A stretch of 35,290 nt of DNA from an uncultured Lachnospiraceae bacterium. Its GTDB lineage: Bacteria; Bacillota; Clostridia; Lachnospirales; Lachnospiraceae. Shown in pieces: positions 14,837 to 35,290 of the stretch (position 1 is its first letter; each line of letters starts with the position of its first letter). Location: NCBI GenBank assembly GCA_902781215.1, contig CACZIO010000034.1:1-35290 (forward strand), written 5' to 3'. Under the pieces are notes generated by a model that was not told the origin of the DNA, did not search any database, and saw only the letters and a program-made list of their open reading frames with translations. The translations under genes and the position numbers were made by a program.

Positions 14837-14885
14837 TGTCCCCTTTACTTCTGCTACATCCCCTTCACTTCGCCCCCTTCACTTA
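14831..14885. other. Candidate left prophage junction (attL) with three direct repeats
   Basis: The vWA reading frame loses sense at about 14836 and the integrase stop lies at 14854, so the crossover should fall in about 14825-14850. Three copies of CCCCTTYACTTM occur at 14840-14851, 14860-14871 and 14874-14885, the last two inside the 3' end of the integrase gene. They may be integrase contact sites or simple repeat expansion. The right junction is outside the window, so the core cannot be defined. Confidence 0.45.
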
Positions 14886-16440
14886 CAGCCGCATACTTAT
14901 GAACAAAAAAACACCGCGTACGAACGTAATGTTCGAACGCGGCGTCTGCGTGGAATAGGCGGGTAGACAGGCGAACACCGTCGTTAAGATCTGACAGGGT
15001 GATTTGCTTCATTTCACCGGTCCCGCCGGGCCGGTAATTGAAAGTCATGGTCATCTTGTCGTCGTAGAGGTAGATGGAGTTGACGAAGGTATCGATGAGG
15101 GCTTTCCGGTCCTCTTCCTTCTCCGGATCCTTCTCGCGGAATTTGAAGAGGAAAAACTCAATGTGGTCTCTGGTGAGCTCCGGGCCTGCCTCCAGCTCGG
15201 CCTGTGCGATCGCCTTCTCAAGTCCCGCCTTCTGGTCCTCCAGGTCCTGAAGCCTCGAGACCAGGGCGTCGGAGATGGCACCGGCCTCCATGGCCTTGAC
15301 CAGATTGGAGATCCCCTTCTCCACATCATGGAGCTCTGAGGCCATGGCATCTATCTCCTCGTTGGCAGCGGCCTCCTCCTGGTAGAAGCTCCAGGCGGCG
15401 TCCACGATTTGCTGGAAGAGATCTTCGTCCTGCAGGAGCTTCATGGTCTCCTCGATCACCAGAGGCTCGATCCAGTCCTGCCGGACGTTCTTCTTTTTGC
15501 AGGAGCCTCCATGCCGCCGGTCAGAACAGACGTAGTATCCATATTTGGTTCCAAGTTTCCCAAATCCGCTCATACCGGCCATCATGGAACCACAGTGGCC
15601 GCAAAAGAGTTTTCCAGTGAGAAGGTATTCCGTATAATCCCATGCATGGGAGGGCATCCGTTTATTCTTCTTCAACATGATCTGAACCTTCTGAAAAGTT
15701 TTCTTGTCGACGATAGCGGGAATGGCGTCCTCATCCCGGATGATGTCTTTGAAGGTGTAGGTGCCGATGTATCTCTCGTCCTTCAACATCCTCGGAAGAG
15801 TCGTCTTTGTGAATTTGGTCCCACGGGCATTCCGGATCCCGGACTCGTCGAGCCATATCAGGAGCTGAGAGACAGTCTCACCTGCAGCGTATTTCGCGAA
15901 GATCTGCCGCGCGATCGGTGCCTGATCAGGATCCAGCTCATAGCTTTTATCCGAGGCCGCCCTGAATCCGTAGGGAAGGAACCCACCGATCACATGATGT
16001 TTCTTTGCGGATTCCAGCTTTCCCCTCGAGACGTTCTGGGAGAGCTGCAGGCTGTAGTACTCCGCGAGGCCCTCCAGGACTGATTCCAGGATGACTCCTT
16101 CAGGGCCGGGCGAGATGTTCTCTGCGACATACTCGACACGGACACCGTACTTCTTCGCCCTGGCTTTGTTCATGGCGATCTCGTAGCGGTTCCGGCCAAA
16201 GCGGTCCACCTTCCAGACGATGATGACAGAGAACTTCCTCTTTGTGCAGTCCGAGAGCATCCGCTGGAATTCGGCCCTGCGGTCGTTCCTGCCGGTCTTC
16301 GCCCGGTCACAGTATTCTGCGATGATGGTATAGCCTTTTCCGTCGGCATACTTTTTGGCAGCGGCCAGCTGTCCTTCGATGGACTGTTCCTGCTGACGCC
16401 TGGAGGAGTAGCGGGCATAGACCACGGCATTTTCTGACAT
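14854..16440 (-). CDS. Large serine recombinase (phage integrase)
   Basis: Catalyses integration of the prophage between attP and attB through a Ser-DNA intermediate. Order: catalytic domain (about 1-150) with YARYSSRRQQEQS containing the nucleophilic Ser near residue 12, and VDRFGRN; recombinase domain (about 165-270) with GGFLPYGFR; zinc ribbon with LFCGHCG and later Cys residues (about 280-325); a coiled-coil (about 350-420); and a C-terminal part. Length 528 is usual. The SD CCGGAGG is close to ATG 16440 but lies in a hairpin (see the leader features). The gene ends at the left prophage boundary, as expected for such integrases. Confidence 0.93.
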   Translation of the reverse strand: MSENAVVYARYSSRRQQEQSIEGQLAAAKKYADGKGYTIIAEYCDRAKTGRNDRRAEFQRMLSDCTKRKFSVIIVWKVDRFGRNRYEIAMNKARAKKYGVRVEYVAENISPGPEGVILESVLEGLAEYYSLQLSQNVSRGKLESAKKHHVIGGFLPYGFRAASDKSYELDPDQAPIARQIFAKYAAGETVSQLLIWLDESGIRNARGTKFTKTTLPRMLKDERYIGTYTFKDIIRDEDAIPAIVDKKTFQKVQIMLKKNKRMPSHAWDYTEYLLTGKLFCGHCGSMMAGMSGFGKLGTKYGYYVCSDRRHGGSCKKKNVRQDWIEPLVIEETMKLLQDEDLFQQIVDAAWSFYQEEAAANEEIDAMASELHDVEKGISNLVKAMEAGAISDALVSRLQDLEDQKAGLEKAIAQAELEAGPELTRDHIEFFLFKFREKDPEKEEDRKALIDTFVNSIYLYDDKMTMTFNYRPGGTGEMKQITLSDLNDGVRLSTRLFHADAAFEHYVRTRCFFVHKYAAVSEGGEVKGM

Positions 16441-17297: not shown

Positions 17298-17801
17298 TCA
17301 GCCTGCGCTGGAAGCTGAGGATCCTTCCGCCTGATTCTTCTTCTCGCGATACTGCCGGAGAAGTTCCTGTTCATCCGGCGGTAAAGAGTTAAGGTCGTTC
17401 TGTGCCGCTACAGGCTGCGGCTTTTCATTATTCACTTCAATTATCGAATCAACGAATTTTTCCAATGCGGCCCATCCGCTCTCATCCAACGCGGCCAGAG
17501 CGGAGATATACCTCCGTTTAAAGGATTCCGGCTTGTCGAGCATGATCTCGTTGACCATCTTCTCAATCTGCTCGTCTCTGGATACTTCGGCGAACGGTTT
17601 ACCTTCGCCATAGCGGAGCCATTCGCTGCGCACGCCAAATTCACGACAAATGGAAATCCTGTTCTGCTCCGTGAGAGAAACGGCGCCGCTTTCAATCCTT
17701 GAGATAGCGGCCTTTGAAACACCGAGAGCCTCCCCAAATTTTTCCATTGTCATTTTCAATAATTCTTTTCTCAGGATCTTGATTCTTTCGCCTTCGTTCA
17801 T
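17298..17801 (-). CDS. XRE-family phage repressor
   Basis: Probable CI-like lysogeny repressor. Residues 1-65 form a helix-turn-helix domain: GERIKILRKEL, KFGEALGVSKAAISRIESG and ISICREFGVRSEWLRYGEG. The middle holds helical sequence with NEIMLDKPESFKRRYISAL, and the C-terminal 60 residues are polar and low in complexity. There is no visible LexA-type Ala-Gly/Ser/Lys peptidase domain, so induction would have to work otherwise. GGAGG precedes ATG 17801. It is divergent from the early operon with a well-formed promoter pair between them. Confidence 0.88.
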   Translation of the reverse strand: MNEGERIKILRKELLKMTMEKFGEALGVSKAAISRIESGAVSLTEQNRISICREFGVRSEWLRYGEGKPFAEVSRDEQIEKMVNEIMLDKPESFKRRYISALAALDESGWAALEKFVDSIIEVNNEKPQPVAAQNDLNSLPPDEQELLRQYREKKNQAEGSSASSAG

Positions 17802-19135: not shown

Positions 19136-19212
19136 CGGGCGGTAGCTCAGTTGGCCAGAGAGGCAGGACATCACACCTGCATTTGTCGGAGGTTCGAATC
19201 CTCCCCGCCCGG
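19136..19212 (+). tRNA. tRNA or tRNA-like gene, isotype not assignable
   Basis: A perfect 7-bp acceptor stem CGGGCGG (19136-19142) / CCGCCCG (19205-19211), U8-A9, a D arm with three pairs (a G-A mismatch at the first), a 9-nt D loop containing GG, a 5-bp anticodon stem GCAGG/CCTGC, and a perfect T arm GGAGG-TTCGAAT-CCTCC with the standard loop. The anticodon loop has eight bases (ACATCACA, 19168-19175) instead of seven and no U in the usual place before an anticodon; the variable loop has seven bases. No CCA is encoded. It may be a degenerate tRNA, one with an expanded anticodon, or a tRNA mimic. Confidence 0.65.
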
Positions 19213-19339
19213 CGCCGGGGACCTATGACCCGGGATGTTACAGAGGCTGCGCTTTGTTGCGGATGCTGCGCAGGCTCAAAAAAGACGGTATCAAACAAAT
19301 GATTCGCAACAGCGGGCCCGGCTAAAGGGCAAGGAGCAC
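19213..19339 (+). other. Structured non-coding stretch after the tRNA-like gene
   Basis: No reading frame here looks real. TGTTGCG (19255-19261) can pair with CGCAACA (19305-19311), and GC-rich blocks around 19229-19235 and 19313-19321 are complementary. It joins the tRNA-like gene to a terminator, so a small RNA or an extended tRNA precursor is possible. Confidence 0.35.
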
Positions 19340-19906: not shown

Positions 19907-20416
19907 ATGAAGAGATTCACAGCTGCGCTCACGCTGGTACTGATCCTCGCGCTCCTGGCCGTGCCGGCCCAGGCCAAAGCACCCAGGAATGGCAAGTACA
20001 TCGACAAGTACGGAAATATTTTCATCATGAAAGACGGCAAGCCCCGCACCGGCCACTTCCGCTACAAGGGAAAGTGGTACTACGGCCACAAGACCGGCGA
20101 CGGCCCATACTGGAAAGGATCCTGCACAGCCGGCGAGATGCGCGTCGAGCGCGGGAACAAGTGGTACGCCTACGGACTGGACGGAGCCATGATCCGAAAG
20201 GATCAGTACGTCCACAGAGGCCGGAGGAGGATCCTGCAGCTGGATATCCGCAGCCGTAACCACACCGTGCGCTACGTCTACGGCACGGCCAGAGGCTCGA
20301 TCGGCTCCAGGTACTCCACCAGGGAAGGCCGGATGCAGTTCCTCGATGACGACGGCGAGTGGAGGACATACGAGGGGATGCCCTACTATCCTCCGTATGT
20401 CGACGATCAGAGGTGA
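19907..20416 (+). CDS. Secreted protein with wall-binding-like repeats
   Basis: A classical signal peptide (MKRF, hydrophobic core LTLVLILALLAV, cleavage after AQA near residue 24) is followed by a basic, aromatic-rich domain. Repeated units of the kind KDGKPRTGHFRYKGKWYYG and GNKWYAYGLDGAMIRKDQY resemble cell-wall- or choline-binding repeats (GxxxTGxxxxxGxWYYF type), here about two to three degenerate copies. Length is 169. The protein is probably exported and bound to the host surface. A secreted protein inside the early region fits a lysogenic-conversion gene. SD GGAGGGGG precedes ATG 19907. The assignment to a repeat family is by pattern only. Confidence 0.7.
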   Translation: MKRFTAALTLVLILALLAVPAQAKAPRNGKYIDKYGNIFIMKDGKPRTGHFRYKGKWYYGHKTGDGPYWKGSCTAGEMRVERGNKWYAYGLDGAMIRKDQYVHRGRRRILQLDIRSRNHTVRYVYGTARGSIGSRYSTREGRMQFLDDDGEWRTYEGMPYYPPYVDDQR

Positions 20417-20419
20417 CCC

Positions 20420-21172
20420 ATGGACGTAGATTTCGGGATCAGACACTGCCCGCAGTGCGGCGTGGCCTACGGCCCGTACTGGGAGGACGACGAGGGGCTG
20501 TGCCCGGCGTGCGAGCGCCTGGAGCAGCTCCGGGAGGCGGCGAAGATCAAACGGAAGCCTAAAATGAAGCCTCCGACCATCATCGAATGCGCGATCTGTA
20601 AGAAGCAATTCGAGAAGAGAGGCACGACGGACAAATACTGCGACGACTGCAAGCACTCGGCGCTGCGCAAAAAGCAACGCGAGTATGAGAAGCGGAAGCG
20701 AGAGGAAGAGGCGAAGAAGAAAAAGGTCGTCCTTCTGCAGCCGGTCCACCTGGAGGAGGGCTCGGATCCGCGAGATGCCTGGATGCCGGAAAGGCCGGAT
20801 CCTCAGAAAAAAAGGCCGGTCGCAAGATTGAAATGCAGCGTCGGAAGGCTGCCGAAGCCGATGCTCGCGCCGACGAAGGGCGTCCGGATCGGCGAGGTAA
20901 CTCCATACACAGAAGGATTCAAACCATACAAGGAAGAAAATCCGGTGACAGGCGCTTTTTCCAAGGAAGAAGACGAGACCATCATGGAGATGCTCGGCAG
21001 ACGCGAAACCTATTCAGACATCGCAAGGGCGCTCGGAAGGACACCGGGTTCCCTCGCGGCACACGCAAAATATTTAGAACGAGAGGACAAAAATGAACAG
21101 ACGAGAGATCAAGAACGCAATCGAAGATGCGGACAGAGTAAAAAGGTTCCTGGAATACATGCTCCTGTCTGA
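20420..21172 (+). CDS. Zinc-ribbon and helix-turn-helix phage protein
   Basis: The 250-residue protein starts with a zinc knuckle (CPQC...CPAC, residues 9-34), then a second ribbon CAICKKQ...YCDDCK (about residues 56-77), a long Lys/Arg/Glu-rich helix, a Pro-rich linker, and near residues 180-220 a SANT/Myb-like helix-turn-helix: FSKEEDETIMEMLGRRE and YSDIARALGRTPGSLAAHA. It probably binds DNA or RNA. ATG 20420 follows GAGGTGAC. The last 80 bases overlap the next gene in another frame, giving a tail of about 25 residues with no conserved look. No specific function can be assigned. Confidence 0.7.
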   Translation: MDVDFGIRHCPQCGVAYGPYWEDDEGLCPACERLEQLREAAKIKRKPKMKPPTIIECAICKKQFEKRGTTDKYCDDCKHSALRKKQREYEKRKREEEAKKKKVVLLQPVHLEEGSDPRDAWMPERPDPQKKRPVARLKCSVGRLPKPMLAPTKGVRIGEVTPYTEGFKPYKEENPVTGAFSKEEDETIMEMLGRRETYSDIARALGRTPGSLAAHAKYLEREDKNEQTRDQERNRRCGQSKKVPGIHAPV

Positions 21173-22268
21173 GGAGAAGAAACAGAGGGTGGAAGTGCCG
21201 ACATCCACAGATGTATCGAACGCCTACGGGGTGATCTGGCATTACGACGAGAACCGCCTGGAGCGCGTCGGCCTCTGCGGAGGATGGGGAGTGCCGGAAC
21301 CGGCAGAGAAGGAAGACGACGAGGGATACAGCCCCTTCGACGAAGTCCTCCCCTGGAGCGGGATGCGGCACGTGATCTTCATCGACGCGATGAAGGACGA
21401 CGAGGGTGCGGACGTCATTACGCGGGACGAAATGGTGGAGATCCCGGATTTCTGGTACACGGCAATAAAGAACGAGAAAGAGAAGACCTGGCTGTGGGCC
21501 ATCTCGCCGAAAGAACAGGAAGGCTTCTGTCACCATCCGGGATCCGGCAGATACATCGGGCGCTACCACATGTCAGGAGGAGACCGCAAGGCTGCATTCT
21601 CCATGAGCGGACAGATCCCGCTCACCCGAATCACACAGGGCGAGGCAAGAGACGCAGCACACGCGAGGGGCAAATCATGGGGCATCATAGACCTCGCCAC
21701 ATGGTCCGCGATCCAGCTCCTCTATCTGATCGAGTTCGCGGACTTCGACGCCAAGAAGAAGCTGGGGACCGGATACAAAGACATGGAGAACTGGGAGCCG
21801 GGCAAGACAGGCGGAACCGACAATTTCAAATACCACACCGTCAAGAGATCGGGGAAAAGCAACTCTTACAGGTGGATCGAAGATCCCTTCTCCAACGTCT
21901 TCGACTGGATCGACGGCTTCATGGGATGCGAAAAAGGCTGCAGGATATCGGCCATGGACACATACACAGGAGACCGTGACGAGCTGGAGGACACCGGCAT
22001 CGGGCTCGCCGACGACGGATGGATCAGCGGATTCGACTATTCCAAAGACGCGCCCTGGGCCTTTATACCTGACGCGTCGGTCGATGACGACGACAGGGAA
22101 AGACACAGCATCGGCGACTTTGTATGGTCCTTGTCGTCGAGGCTCTACCCGGCCTATGTCGGCGGCGGCTATGGCGACGGCGCGCTCTATGGGTTCTTCT
22201 GCCTGTCTGCGCTCAACTCCGCGTCGTTCACCGACGGCTACCTCGGCTCCCGCCTCCTTAAAACCTAA
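21093..22268 (+). CDS. DGR-type variable protein (C-type-lectin/FGE-like fold)
   Basis: The 391-residue protein has the layout of diversity-generating retroelement (DGR) target proteins. Its middle shows the receptor-binding fold: PFDEVLPWSGMRHV, MVEIPDFWY, WLWAISPKEQEGFCHHP, GRYIGRYHM, SWGIIDLATWSAIQLLYLIE and YRWIEDPFSNVFDWIDGF. The C-terminus YVGGGYGDGALYGFF, then LNSASFTDGYLGSRLL, aligns by eye with the variable region of known targets, where template AAC codons become NNC codons. Here the candidate variable positions are GGC, GAC, CTC, TTC, TAC. It probably displays a changeable ligand-binding surface. No reverse transcriptase or template repeat is in the window. It lies in the early region, not with tail genes. 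ATG 21093 follows GAGAGGAC. Confidence 0.72.
   Translation: MNRREIKNAIEDADRVKRFLEYMLLSEEKKQRVEVPTSTDVSNAYGVIWHYDENRLERVGLCGGWGVPEPAEKEDDEGYSPFDEVLPWSGMRHVIFIDAMKDDEGADVITRDEMVEIPDFWYTAIKNEKEKTWLWAISPKEQEGFCHHPGSGRYIGRYHMSGGDRKAAFSMSGQIPLTRITQGEARDAAHARGKSWGIIDLATWSAIQLLYLIEFADFDAKKKLGTGYKDMENWEPGKTGGTDNFKYHTVKRSGKSNSYRWIEDPFSNVFDWIDGFMGCEKGCRISAMDTYTGDRDELEDTGIGLADDGWISGFDYSKDAPWAFIPDASVDDDDRERHSIGDFVWSLSSRLYPAYVGGGYGDGALYGFFCLSALNSASFTDGYLGSRLLKT
22155..22262 (+). other. Putative DGR variable region (VR)
   Basis: The last 36 codons of the gene from about TAT 22155 to CTT 22262. Codons at positions where known targets diversify end in C (GGC, GAC, CTC, TTC, TAC), as expected from adenine-directed change of AAC, while constant ones spell GGC-GGC, CTC-AAC-TCC-GCG-TCG and CTC-GGC-TCC-CGC. 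The extent is a judgement, as no template repeat is available to compare. Confidence 0.5.
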
Positions 22269-22276
22269 TAGGGGGA

Positions 22277-22296
22277 CCGGGGGAGCCTTCCCCCGG
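22277..22296 (+). other. GC-rich hairpin 8 nt after the variable protein stop
   Basis: CCGGGGGA (22277-22284), loop GCCT, TCCCCCGG (22289-22296): an 8-bp perfect stem with a 4-base loop. There is no T run after it. Hairpins of this size lie just past the initiation-of-mutagenic-homing (IMH) site in the Bordetella phage DGR and stimulate retrohoming. Confidence 0.55.
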
Positions 22297-25833: not shown

Positions 25834-26511
25834 GTGGACGGAAAAAAAGAAATCGTAAAAATCCTGAACAGCATGTCGGGCCGATACTCCGGATACGAGA
25901 TCTTTTCCGACTGGATCCGATGCCTTGCCCTATCGATCGAGCAAAGCACGCACATGATCCGCAACAAAGACTGGCAGGACCGTGAGCAGGCATATCTGGA
26001 CACGATCAAGAGATACACGCCGGAAGAGCAGACACAGTTTGCCGTGATGACCGCCCGCCTGATCGAGACTCTGGAAGACGGCCCCGCTGATGTTCTCGGG
26101 GAGATCTACATGGAGGCCGGGCTCGGCTCCAAGATTGCAGGGCAATTTTTCACACCTTTTCACCTGTCGGAGCTGACGGCAAAAGCAGGACTTGGCGACA
26201 AAATCGAAAAACTGAAAAGCGGGGAGCTCAGGAGGCTTACAGTCCTCGAGCCCTCCTGCGGGGGCGGGGCGATGGTAATTGCAGCCGCAAAGATCCTACA
26301 GGAAGAAGGCGTCAACTACCAGAAGGTAATGGATGTGGTTGCGCAAGACCTCGACTGGAAAGGTGTGTACATGTGCTATGTGCAGTTATCGCTACTCGGG
26401 ATCAGCGCGATCTGTGTCCAGGGGAACACACTAACGGAGCCGTATGACCCGCACCGGACGCCGCGTTCTCACATCCTGACTACTCCCAGAAAGGCGGGGA
26501 TGCTGATATGA
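25834..26511 (+). CDS. Adenine-N6 DNA methylase-like protein lacking motif IV
   Basis: Resembles the N6-adenine methylases of phages related to type I HsdM. It begins with GTG 25834 after AGAGGAGG. Visible: helical N-terminal part, GSKIAGQFFTPFHLSELTA (the QxFTP motif before the SAM site), motif I VLEPSCGGGAMVIAA (about residues 137-151), and VAQDLDWKGVYMCYVQLSLLG. The catalytic (N/D)PP(Y/F) motif IV is not seen: after the GNTL segment the protein ends within 25 residues. At 225 residues it may be a truncated form or act without methyl transfer. No partner restriction gene is nearby. Confidence 0.75.
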   Translation: MDGKKEIVKILNSMSGRYSGYEIFSDWIRCLALSIEQSTHMIRNKDWQDREQAYLDTIKRYTPEEQTQFAVMTARLIETLEDGPADVLGEIYMEAGLGSKIAGQFFTPFHLSELTAKAGLGDKIEKLKSGELRRLTVLEPSCGGGAMVIAAAKILQEEGVNYQKVMDVVAQDLDWKGVYMCYVQLSLLGISAICVQGNTLTEPYDPHRTPRSHILTTPRKAGMLI

Positions 26512-27578
26512 GCAAAGCAAAAGACGCCCTGCGGGACGAACTTATCACGCTGATGCGCGGATACGTTCCGCCGCAGAGCCTGGAAGACTGCAAATTCCGG
26601 ATCACTATGGCGCTCAATTCGTACACCGTGGAAAAGGAAGAGACGGCCCTGACGATCTACGAGGGAGACGTAAACGAAAAGATCCTGATGCGCTTCCTCA
26701 TGGCGAAGACGGCAAGAGGGCTTTCCAAGCGAACACTCGCATACTACAAGGACACGATCTCGAGAACACTGGAGGCGATCGGCAAGCCATACACACAGGT
26801 GACGGCTGATGATATCCGCTACTATCTCGCGGTGAGAGTGGCCAGGGACGGAGTAACAAAGGCCACGGCAAACAACGAAAGGAGGAATCTCTCGTCGTTC
26901 TTTGGCTGGCTCCAGAAGGAGGAAATCCTGCTCAAAAATCCAATGAACAGGATAGAAGCAATCAAAGAAACAAAGAAAAAGAAAAAGGCTTTTGAGCAAA
27001 TTGAAATTGAAAAAATGCGCTTTGCCTGCGAAACAGCATTGGAAACGGCACTGCTCGAAGTCTTGATTTCTACGTGGGCCAGAGTAACGGAAGTTACGCT
27101 GATGCGCATTGATGAGATCAAAGGGAATAAGATAGTTGTCCATGGAAAGGGAGACAAGGAAAGAGAAGTTTTCCTGAACGCAAAAGCACAAGTGGCAATC
27201 AGCGCATATCTGGCGGAAAGGGAGGACGATAGTCCTTTACTTTTCCCCAAAGGACGGCCTTCGCAGACATACATCAAAACTGGCACAAGGCCCAAAGAAC
27301 TGAAGTACTGGTATCGCAACAAAGAAAATATTGCAGGCGGACCAAGAGATCCGAGCGGAATTGAGAGCACTGTAAGAAAAATCGCACGTAGAGCAGGCGT
27401 GCAAAATGCTCACCCTCACCGCTTCCGGCGGACGGGCGCGACGATGGCTCTCAGGGCCGGAATGCCGATCACGCTGGTCTCGAAGCTGCTCGGACATGAA
27501 AGCATCGCGACTACACAGATTTACCTGGACATCTCCGATAAGGAACTTGAGCAGATGCATGAGAAGTACGTCGTGTAG
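26508..27578 (+). CDS. Tyrosine recombinase (XerC/D-like)
   Basis: Site-specific recombinase of the phage integrase/Xer family, 356 residues. The N-terminal SAM-like domain (about 65-165) has SKRTLAYYKDTISRTL and the NNERRNLSSFFGWLQ helix. The catalytic domain shows ARVTEVTLM (first Arg), VVHGKGDKEREV (Lys), HPHRFRRTGAT (His-xx-Arg), LLGHESIATTQIYLDI (His, then the nucleophile Tyr). All are present, so it should be active. It is coupled to the methylase gene (ATGA). Because a serine integrase already serves integration, this enzyme may resolve multimers or invert a local segment. An A/T-rich spacer follows. Confidence 0.9.
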   Translation: MSKAKDALRDELITLMRGYVPPQSLEDCKFRITMALNSYTVEKEETALTIYEGDVNEKILMRFLMAKTARGLSKRTLAYYKDTISRTLEAIGKPYTQVTADDIRYYLAVRVARDGVTKATANNERRNLSSFFGWLQKEEILLKNPMNRIEAIKETKKKKKAFEQIEIEKMRFACETALETALLEVLISTWARVTEVTLMRIDEIKGNKIVVHGKGDKEREVFLNAKAQVAISAYLAEREDDSPLLFPKGRPSQTYIKTGTRPKELKYWYRNKENIAGGPRDPSGIESTVRKIARRAGVQNAHPHRFRRTGATMALRAGMPITLVSKLLGHESIATTQIYLDISDKELEQMHEKYVV

Positions 27579-34491: not shown

Positions 34492-34590
34492 TTTCAAATT
34501 CTGCTTTAAGCAGGAGGCGACGGCAGCGGGCGGCACAAAGCACCTGCTCTACATCTACGACAGCGTCCGCAAGAGGGGCGACTTTAATGA
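34475..34590 (+). pseudogene. Head maturation protease gene, cut by the IS element
   Basis: ATG 34475 follows AAAGGAGG and overlaps the end of portal. The first about 38 residues (MPKRTDFKFCFKQEATA..., then HLLYIYDSVRKRGDFN) look like the beginning of a ClpP-like prohead protease, which normally follows portal. After GDFN at about 34588 the sequence turns into IS left-end DNA and the frame ends without the catalytic domain. Protease identity rests on order and the N-terminal pattern. Confidence 0.65.
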
Positions 34591-34604
34591 AACAGATATA
34601 AATC

Positions 34605-34621
34605 CCCCAGCAGAGCTGGGG
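34605..34621. repeat. IS200 left-end hairpin
   Basis: CCCCAGC (34605-34611), loop AGA, GCTGGGG (34615-34621). Such subterminal imperfect hairpins are the transposase recognition sites in this family. It resembles the right-end hairpin at 35262-35282. Confidence 0.7.
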
Positions 34622-34663
34622 AGACTACCAGAGCGTGGTGCGATAAACGGAGTATAAGAAAAA

Positions 34664-34727
34664 ACCTCCGTTGTATAATCAGTATAATCAATGTGGGTCT
34701 AGCAAACCACAAGGATACAACGGAGGT
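34664..34727 (+). promoter_or_regulatory. RBS-sequestering inverted repeat of tnpA
   Basis: ACCTCCGTTGTAT (34664-34676) pairs perfectly with ATACAACGGAGGT (34715-34727), which contains the tnpA SD GGAGGT. This mirrors the known IS200 arrangement in which an mRNA stem limits transposase translation. Two TATAAT-like hexamers lie in the loop side (34674-34679 and 34683-34688). Confidence 0.75.
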
Positions 34728-34732
34728 GTCCA

Positions 34733-35155
34733 ATGGACAATCAAAGTTTAGCACACAGCAAATATGATTGCACGTACCACATTGTGTTTATTCCGAAGTA
34801 TCGTCGCAAGGTAATGTTTGGTAACCTTCGGCGGGAAGTTGGAGAGACAATTAGCAAGGTGTGCAAGATGGAAGGTGTGACAATAATAAAAGCCGCAACC
34901 CTGCCTGATCACGTGCACATGTATGTCTCTATACCGCCGAAACTGAGTGTTGCAAAGGCTGTCGGTAGAATCAAAGGGAAAAGTGCCTTGATGCTTTTCG
35001 ACAGGCACCCGGAATATAGGGTGAAATATGATCGCCATTTTTGGGCGAGGGGATATTACTGTGAAACGGTAGGTAATGTAAATGAAACAACAATAATCAA
35101 GTATATAGCAGAGCAGTATGAAAGGGATCGACTGGAAGGAGATCCCAAAAAGTAA
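34733..35155 (+). CDS. tnpA: IS200/IS605-family Y1 transposase
   Basis: Single-strand transposase with one catalytic Tyr, cutting at hairpin ends. The 140-residue length is standard. Visible: N-terminal YDCTYHIVFIPKYRRKV, the HUH motif DHVHMYVSI (about residue 60), VGRIKGKSALMLF, HFWARGYYCETVG, and the C-terminal helix IIKYIAEQY with the nucleophile Tyr. The SD GGAGGT lies 5-6 nt upstream of ATG 34733 but is in a stem. Codon use is more A/T-rich than in the phage genes. Confidence 0.95.
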   Translation: MDNQSLAHSKYDCTYHIVFIPKYRRKVMFGNLRREVGETISKVCKMEGVTIIKAATLPDHVHMYVSIPPKLSVAKAVGRIKGKSALMLFDRHPEYRVKYDRHFWARGYYCETVGNVNETTIIKYIAEQYERDRLEGDPKK

Positions 35156-35164
35156 CTTTCGGAA

Positions 35165-35282
35165 GCCGCTTTTAAGCGGCCACCAGTAACAGACAGAACA
35201 AGTTTGCTGGACCACCGCCTTTAGGCGGAATCACAACAACGCCCCGGAGGGGCTAACACAAACCACCAGCGGAGCTGGTGGT
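35165..35282. repeat. IS right-end hairpin series
   Basis: Four hairpins follow tnpA: GCCGCTT/AAGCGGC (35165-35180), CCGCC-TTTA-GGCGG (35215-35228), GCCCC-GGA-GGGGC (35241-35253) and ACCACCAGC-GGA-GCTGGTGGT (35262-35282). The last matches the left-end hairpin in loop and flank and should be the cleavage signal. Confidence 0.65.
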
Positions 35283-35290
35283 CCTGACTT

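Follow-up and report, generated by a model that had tools for sequence, protein, structure and literature searches.

A stand-alone gene in the early region of a Lachnospiraceae prophage as a very probable second, remote target of the prophage's own diversity-generating retroelement

The diversity-generating retroelement (DGR) of Bordetella phage BPP-1 has a single target, which lies beside the gene for its reverse transcriptase (RT). According to the accessible portions of the respective reports, multiple variable repeats (VRs) occur in 271 of 948 DGRs (PMC6642488), nd4- and nd12-type phages have two different targets (PMC10743442), and the Faecalibacterium phages Lelie, CP11 and Lagaffe have two variable regions per DGR, both of which vary from genome to genome in Lagaffe_CP and CP11 (PMC11792537). 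Remote second VRs in the DGRs of human-gut prophages have also been published (PMC12629997), and the authors of a large DGR survey name remote targets among what their own method misses, and fragmented assemblies as a cause that such targets stay hidden (PMC8144416). Here, we analyzed a contig of 35,290 nucleotides from an uncultured Lachnospiraceae bacterium (CACZIO010000034.1, hereafter the window, or C34), in which an earlier note, made from the sequence alone, had pointed to an orphan DGR-type variable protein in the early region of a prophage. Our results indicate that this gene is very probably the second, remote target of the prophage's own DGR, which is found on another contig, C27, of the same genome. 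The gene and the elements at its 3' end are as follows.

21093..22268, plus strand: stand-alone gene of a DGR variable protein, the proposed second target; 391 aa, with a short N-terminal helix and a DGR/FGE-like domain
22142..22253, plus strand: variable repeat (VR2), matching the template repeat (TR) at C27:17705-17816, with changes at 17 of 27 template adenines and 3 of 85 other positions
22242..22259, plus strand: 3' end of VR2, resembling an initiation of mutagenic homing (IMH) sequence; positions 22254-22255 are CT in VRs and AA, AC or AT in the listed TRs
22277..22296, plus strand: GC-rich hairpin beyond the stop codon, with an 8-bp stem and a 4-nt loop, found by folding of VR ends

The genome of the window (G000) is a draft of 3,333,509 bases in 132 contigs and is 94.67% complete. 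When this genome was searched with the 391-aa protein, the matches were the protein itself, a 50% match in a long open reading frame (ORF) of C27 and, a short way downstream of that ORF, an isolated copy of residues 348-389; this is the pattern of a first variable repeat (VR1) followed by a TR. The DGR on C27 consists of a tail-fibre gene with VR1, a 118-bp TR (C27:17705-17822) and an RT gene (C27:17943-19073), and the TR lies in the 387-bp gap between the stop of the target and the start of the RT. The RT, of 376 aa, gives the sole RVT_1 match listed for the genome and matches phrog_1423 (Reverse transcriptase, 1.4e-93). A group II intron or retron was rejected as the meaning of this RT, as TR and VRs exist and the maturase score, 80.6, falls short of the cut-off of 300. 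A CotH-kinase-like domain (PF08757, E 2.1e-5) was also observed on the tail fibre (L004:6077-9556, on C27), far from its variable tip.

Over the full 118 bp, window 22142-22259 pairs with the TR with 22 differences, 19 of them at template adenines; this is the near-copy differing mainly at adenines that the earlier note had proposed to look for in the genome, and the RT that it had also proposed to look for adjoins it. Positions 1-112 hold 20 mismatches, 17 at adenines, and chance resemblance was ruled out, as none of 100,000 random placements of 20 mismatches was as extreme. The template codons in the stretch are nine AAC and one AAT, as had been deduced from the NNC type of the variable codons, and the window has GGC, GGC, GGC, CTC, TCT, CTC, AAC, TTC, GAC and TAC at these ten sites. 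Within the window itself, blastn finds VR2 alone and no TR, in agreement with the first inspection. Positions 113-118 were excluded from all VR/TR counts, and the repeats of 3300031760_000283 and G158 were cut at the same motif. The codon ahead of the final CTT is CTC in the listed VRs and AAC, ACC or ATC in the TRs, which we take as an IMH difference rather than diversification. The hairpin was also found 3' of the VR1 on C27 and of VR2 in the viral contigs G146, G158 and G159, that is, after all five VRs folded, and not after the one TR folded. In its A-specific copying, its IMH and its 8-bp GC stem with a 4-nt loop after the VR, the system resembles the Mtd DGR of BPP-1, from which the term IMH comes and in which the hairpin is needed for efficient homing; it differs in the loop, which has the consensus GRNA in BPP-1 and is GCCT here (PMC3240598, for the portions accessible).

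Differences among strains are concentrated at the same positions. In an alignment of the window gene with its three close relatives, variation affects 26 of the 27 template-A columns, compared with 14 of the 85 remaining columns of the VR and 132 of the 1046 columns of the gene body, and the mean pairwise differences are 0.67, 0.10 and 0.07, respectively; the A-specific variation at the 3' end that the earlier note had suggested checking is thus observed. Comparison of each VR with its own TR gave 98 of 196 adenines and 18 of 608 other positions changed for VR2 in seven phages, and 137 of 284 adenines and 1 of 854 other positions for VR1 in ten phages, two of whose VR1s are identical. These counts leave out the VR1s of 3300021399_000566 and 3300031867_000673 (TR not on the contig), the truncated VR1s of G158 and G148, one 49-bp VR fragment and the VRs of other loci from the alignment scans described below. 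In G146, both VRs have 16 of 28 adenines changed and no non-A mismatch to their own TR (0 of 84 for VR2), yet the two are not identical. In G147, the non-A mismatches in positions 1-112 (3 of 83) are confined to bases 1-14, a distribution that incomplete copying would produce. The share of hydrophobic residues at variable AAN codons shows no difference between VR1 (9/92) and VR2 (13/72; p 0.17). The A-to-G/T/C spectrum is 87/35/4 for nine distinct VR1s and 48/40/10 for seven VR2s (p 0.004), from which we make no claim because the sequences are related.

Three IMG/VR contigs, each carrying the full-length protein (88-89%), the RT (98%) and the TR (94%), indicate how C34 and C27 fit together. 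Homologues of C34:34587 and C27:99 are one base apart in G146, a 44-kb contig, and in G147 the sequence homologous to C27:24140 is continued by that homologous to C34:14951. The distance between VR2 and TR is 12.9-14.3 kb on the three contigs; in the window's phage, by summed coordinates, it is about 13.5 kb by the same path and about 30 kb through the integrated prophage. Because G146 joins both parts with a single base between them, C34 and C27 are most reasonably regarded as physically joined in the window's genome, as one prophage split by assembly. The description of the gene as an orphan did not survive this comparison, as TR and RT sit in the same prophage and the gene and the DGR occur together on the three viral contigs; its orphan appearance can be traced to the assembly break that puts the DGR on a second contig. 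The diversification in trans by a DGR elsewhere in the genome, which the earlier note had offered as one possibility, is borne out by the TR near-copy, the adjoining RT and the A-focused strain differences. The ends concerned are as follows.

14952..14963, no strand: attL core; near-identical 12 bases at C27:24129-24140 and in the G147 junction
34588..35290, no strand: contig end, carrying a transposase (phrog_2577); the phage sequence resumes at C27:99, C27 being the contig of the tail genes and the DGR

The 12-base att core has one mismatch between the two host contigs, and the right end of the prophage lies at the 3' end of the host tmRNA (C27:24129-24140; L004:16129-16473). This tmRNA-end attachment was observed even though a large serine recombinase is the integrase of the left end; within the prophage, 26508-27578 also encodes a tyrosine recombinase. 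The transposase, at window 34733-35155, is the probable cause of the assembly break inside the prophage. We take phrog_2577 to be of the IS200/IS605 type.

Similar arrangements were found in other phage lineages. An alignment (A2) used for scanning matched 35 loci, 9 on genome contigs and 26 on viral contigs, and ORFs were measured in 32 of them, with three loci of the window's own group left out. Short closed ORFs occur at three of these loci: counted from the earliest potential start, they have 359 aa in G158 (3300021400_000638), 442 aa in G159 (3300031998_000137) and 429 aa in 3300031760_000283; the next shortest closed ORF has 513 aa (L100), and several others run off the contig end. Each of the three contigs also carries a long tail gene, a TR and an RT, the last being 76%, 74% and 58% identical to that of the window's phage, and the stand-alone proteins are 43-54% identical to the window's. 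Their VR2s differ from their own TRs at 13 of 28 adenines and 1 of 86 other positions in G158, 12 of 27 and 0 of 85 in G159, and 17 of 29 and 1 of 101 in 3300031760_000283, and the VR2-TR distance on other contigs is 12 to 18.5 kb. In a fifth contig of the window's group (G154), the start of the gene lies at the contig edge. In a tree built without the VR, the stand-alone rows of the window's group, G158 and G159 (six of seven rows) form one clade (99/99), which indicates that the gene is not a fresh tail-fibre copy in these three lineages; a recent copy of the phage's own tail fibre was ruled out by the tree at least for them. The clade of all seven stand-alone rows, with 3300031760_000283 added, is weak (63/88), and the tree program warned of long branches and of an odd letter make-up in the window's row.

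In wider scans, a profile (A1) matched 6 of 397 genomes of the family and 17 of 391 genomes of the class, the window's own being included in both, and a search of relatives gave a match in 3 of 146 genomes, again including the window's own; no other genome among the A1 matches listed has the remote two-target arrangement. Six A1 loci were compared within their fetched flanks. L136 of G690, whose ORF has 386 aa, and L145 both have copies of the repeat and an RT next to the target, and L139, which is partly masked, has only an RT. The remaining three (L128, L135 and L137) are distant relatives of the domain in genomes of the class or family, with neither a repeat copy nor an RT in the fetched flanks, and are possible remote or former targets.

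The fold of the protein agrees with its proposed role as a DGR target. No family match was obtained for the 391-aa protein in searches of Pfam and NCBIfam, and no match with PADLOC, and a sequence search of the PDB gave one weak match, 5vf4 (E 0.0029), which was later borne out by the fold. An AlphaFold2 model from 33 sequences reached pLDDT 86.1 and pTM 0.86 (an earlier model from 15 sequences was poor, with pLDDT 49, and was left out of the fold search); its N-terminal helix, residues 3-28, is of low confidence, and the sequence there varies from lineage to lineage. Foldseek gave 684 matches with E up to 10 for this model, and the three under E 0.001 are all chains of TaqVP (5vf4), the DGR variable protein of Thermus aquaticus (E 3e-10 to 5e-10), followed by BPP-1 Mtd variants (E 1.3e-3 and weaker). 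The C-terminal FGE/C-lectin-like fold suggested by the first inspection thus has a DGR variable protein as its best predicted fold match. The match to TaqVP extends over about 400 alignment columns, although identity is 15-16% and TM-scores are 0.44-0.47. In PHROGs, the protein matches phrog_5302, a tail protein (1.2e-36), over profile positions 143-541 of 548, which leaves positions 1-142 unmatched. No tail-attachment region was recognised with Pfam or PHROGs, although the short helix could serve as one, and simple hydropathy gave no strongly hydrophobic run in the first 60 residues.

Beside the human-gut prophage DGRs (PMC12629997), the present case adds a second target that is a stand-alone relative of the tail-tip domain, in phages of a probable Lachnospiraceae host, with a fit of VR2 to the phage's own TR as evidence in four lineages. 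It resembles Lelie and CP11 in the combination of one large and one small target and differs in that their targets carry DUF6273, and those of Lagaffe are Mtd-like, whereas the window's protein has no Pfam family (PMC11792537, for the portions accessible). No paper on this phage group or on a family of stand-alone early-region targets was found in the searched, largely open-access literature. Remote second targets are already known, and the conserved stand-alone early family and the mismatch of TR alleles described below are the parts for which we found no earlier description.

The second target does not lie among tail genes; it lies in the early region near the repressor and integrase, between these and the replication and packaging genes, as the earlier note had recognised. 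The neighbouring features of this region are as follows.

14854..16440, minus strand: large serine integrase, left end of the prophage
17298..17801, minus strand: CI-like repressor, marking the immunity region upstream of the early genes
19907..20416, plus strand: protein of 169 aa, hydrophobic at its N-terminus (KD15 2.77), with homologues close to the second target in G159 and G158
20420..21172, plus strand: upstream gene overlapping the start of the target, zinc-ribbon/HTH-like by weak matches, probably in the same operon
25834..26511, plus strand: N6-methyltransferase-like gene of the same early region, a possible counter-defence neighbour

A MazG-like gene is also present in the region. 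In the window, G158 and 3300031760_000283, the second target is preceded by a CI-like repressor and an integrase that are encoded on the other strand, and in G159 by an integrase and a repressor homologue; the distance from repressor to target is 1.3-5.2 kb in the four lineages. The integrase is of the serine type in the window and belongs to phrog_1, which we take to be the tyrosine type, in the other three. The homologue of the 169-aa protein is directly upstream of the second target in G159 (46%; L092:9348-9812) and about 4 kb beyond it in G158 (37%; L091), and none was found in the stretches searched of 3300031760_000283; this secreted-like neighbour might be a partner of the second target. 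In addition, ARAGORN reported a tRNA-like element with an odd four-base anticodon at window 19136-19213, in the early region of the prophage.

Several observations weigh against the assignment of the gene to the prophage's own DGR, or against a general rule for such targets. The RVT_1 score of the RT is 24.8 bits, below the Pfam cut-off of 29.6; no Avd-like protein, which BPP-1 has, was found with a bAvd profile that was also silent in all 14 control genomes; and the hairpin of the window is only moderate, as 14 of 200 shuffles fold as well, compared with 2-5 of 200 for the other four hairpins. In the class genome G690, the 386-aa target lies right beside the RT, which shows that short targets are not always remote or early. 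A further discrepancy concerns the copies of the window and G148, which contribute 3 and 10, respectively, of the 18 non-A changes of VR2 over seven phages. Their mismatches at non-A positions fall from 3 and 10 against the resident TR to 1 and 1 against the TR of 3300021426_001953, in which the template codon is ATG and A-to-C yields the CTG of VR2. Given this better fit, both copies were probably last written from another TR allele, with either the TR exchanged since or the DGR of another phage having done the writing. The latter, with a co-resident phage as writer, would mean that related phages diversify the second targets of one another, and is unlikely in our judgment: VR2-TR distances of 12 to 18.5 kb elsewhere indicate that distance is no bar, but the same observations are explained if recombination replaced the TR once the last homing had taken place, and only one RVT_1 match is listed for a genome that is about 95% complete. 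The same better fit of a foreign allele, in two of the four close strains, could speak for a frozen former target that is now an ordinary early gene, as the earlier note had considered. For the family this finds no support, in view of the counts in G146 (16 of 28 adenines against 0 of 84 others), the at most one non-A mismatch to the own TR in G146, G158, G159 and 3300031760_000283, and the variation of nearly all adenine columns among four strains over a constrained gene body, and we regard freezing as highly improbable; for the window's own copy, recent rewriting is a possibility only.

The remaining alternatives concern what the gene is for. Long identical stretches common to VR2 and VR1 could suggest that it serves chiefly as a reserve of VR sequence for recombination with the tail fibre. 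However, the gene has its own N-terminus, its body is a full, selected ORF, as judged from ratios of nonsynonymous to synonymous substitution rates (dN/dS) of 0.13-0.20 in six pairs, and six of the seven stand-alone rows have their own well-supported branch, so that a donor cassette appears very unlikely. A second virion adhesin, whose stand-alone domain would join the tail or capsid as a receptor- or mucus-binding head and be early only by genome position, is a more serious candidate, albeit one that we consider doubtful. It is suggested by the 50% identity to the tail-fibre tip, by the tail-protein label of phrog_5302, by the nearest predicted viral structures, which are mostly tail fibres (best TM 0.76) and speak against a role confined to the cell, and by the large and small targets of Faecalibacterium phages (PMC11792537, in part). 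On the other side, only a short helix precedes the domain, the first 142 positions of phrog_5302 are unmatched, and the gene is near the repressor and integrase and away from the tail fibre in all four lineages.

As regards the gene's place as a second, remote target, the TR, the RT, both VRs, the A-specific differences, the hairpin, the single phage genome and the recurrence are read from sequence, and from them we infer the biochemical steps, their occurrence in this host and when the gene is expressed. RNA would be made from the TR by the late-region DGR, and the RT would copy this RNA with errors at adenines. The resulting cDNA would replace VR1 at the end of the adjacent tail-fibre gene and also VR2 at the end of the stand-alone early gene, with the IMH end common to the VRs and the hairpin beyond the stop codon as guides. 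As to function, we tentatively lean, at somewhat short of even confidence, towards a protein that is made early, remains inside the infected or lysogenic cell instead of joining the virion, and may bind, through its diversified surface, a variable partner from host defence or a competing phage. The early place close to repressor and integrase in four lineages, the absence of a strongly hydrophobic N-terminus in all four (by hydropathy alone) and the methyltransferase-like and MazG-like neighbours are consistent with such a role. A bolder reading, which we hold to be speculative and rather unlikely, is that of a phage "antibody": a free-standing, early-expressed family of variable proteins, older than its carrier phages, which each phage would randomise with its tail-tip template. 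On this reading, the family would bind changing targets, either in the cell (defence proteins or rival phages) or at the wall, the latter jointly with the secreted-like neighbour.

Fragmented assemblies hide remote targets, and in the present case an assembly break made a two-target phage look like the host of an orphan. Most interpretations of phage DGRs see them as devices by which tails alter host range, and here a second target with a tail-tip domain and no recognisable tail part has been retained in the early region in four phage lineages. If the role within the cell is true, these phages would carry a device of targeted hypermutation for use after entry.
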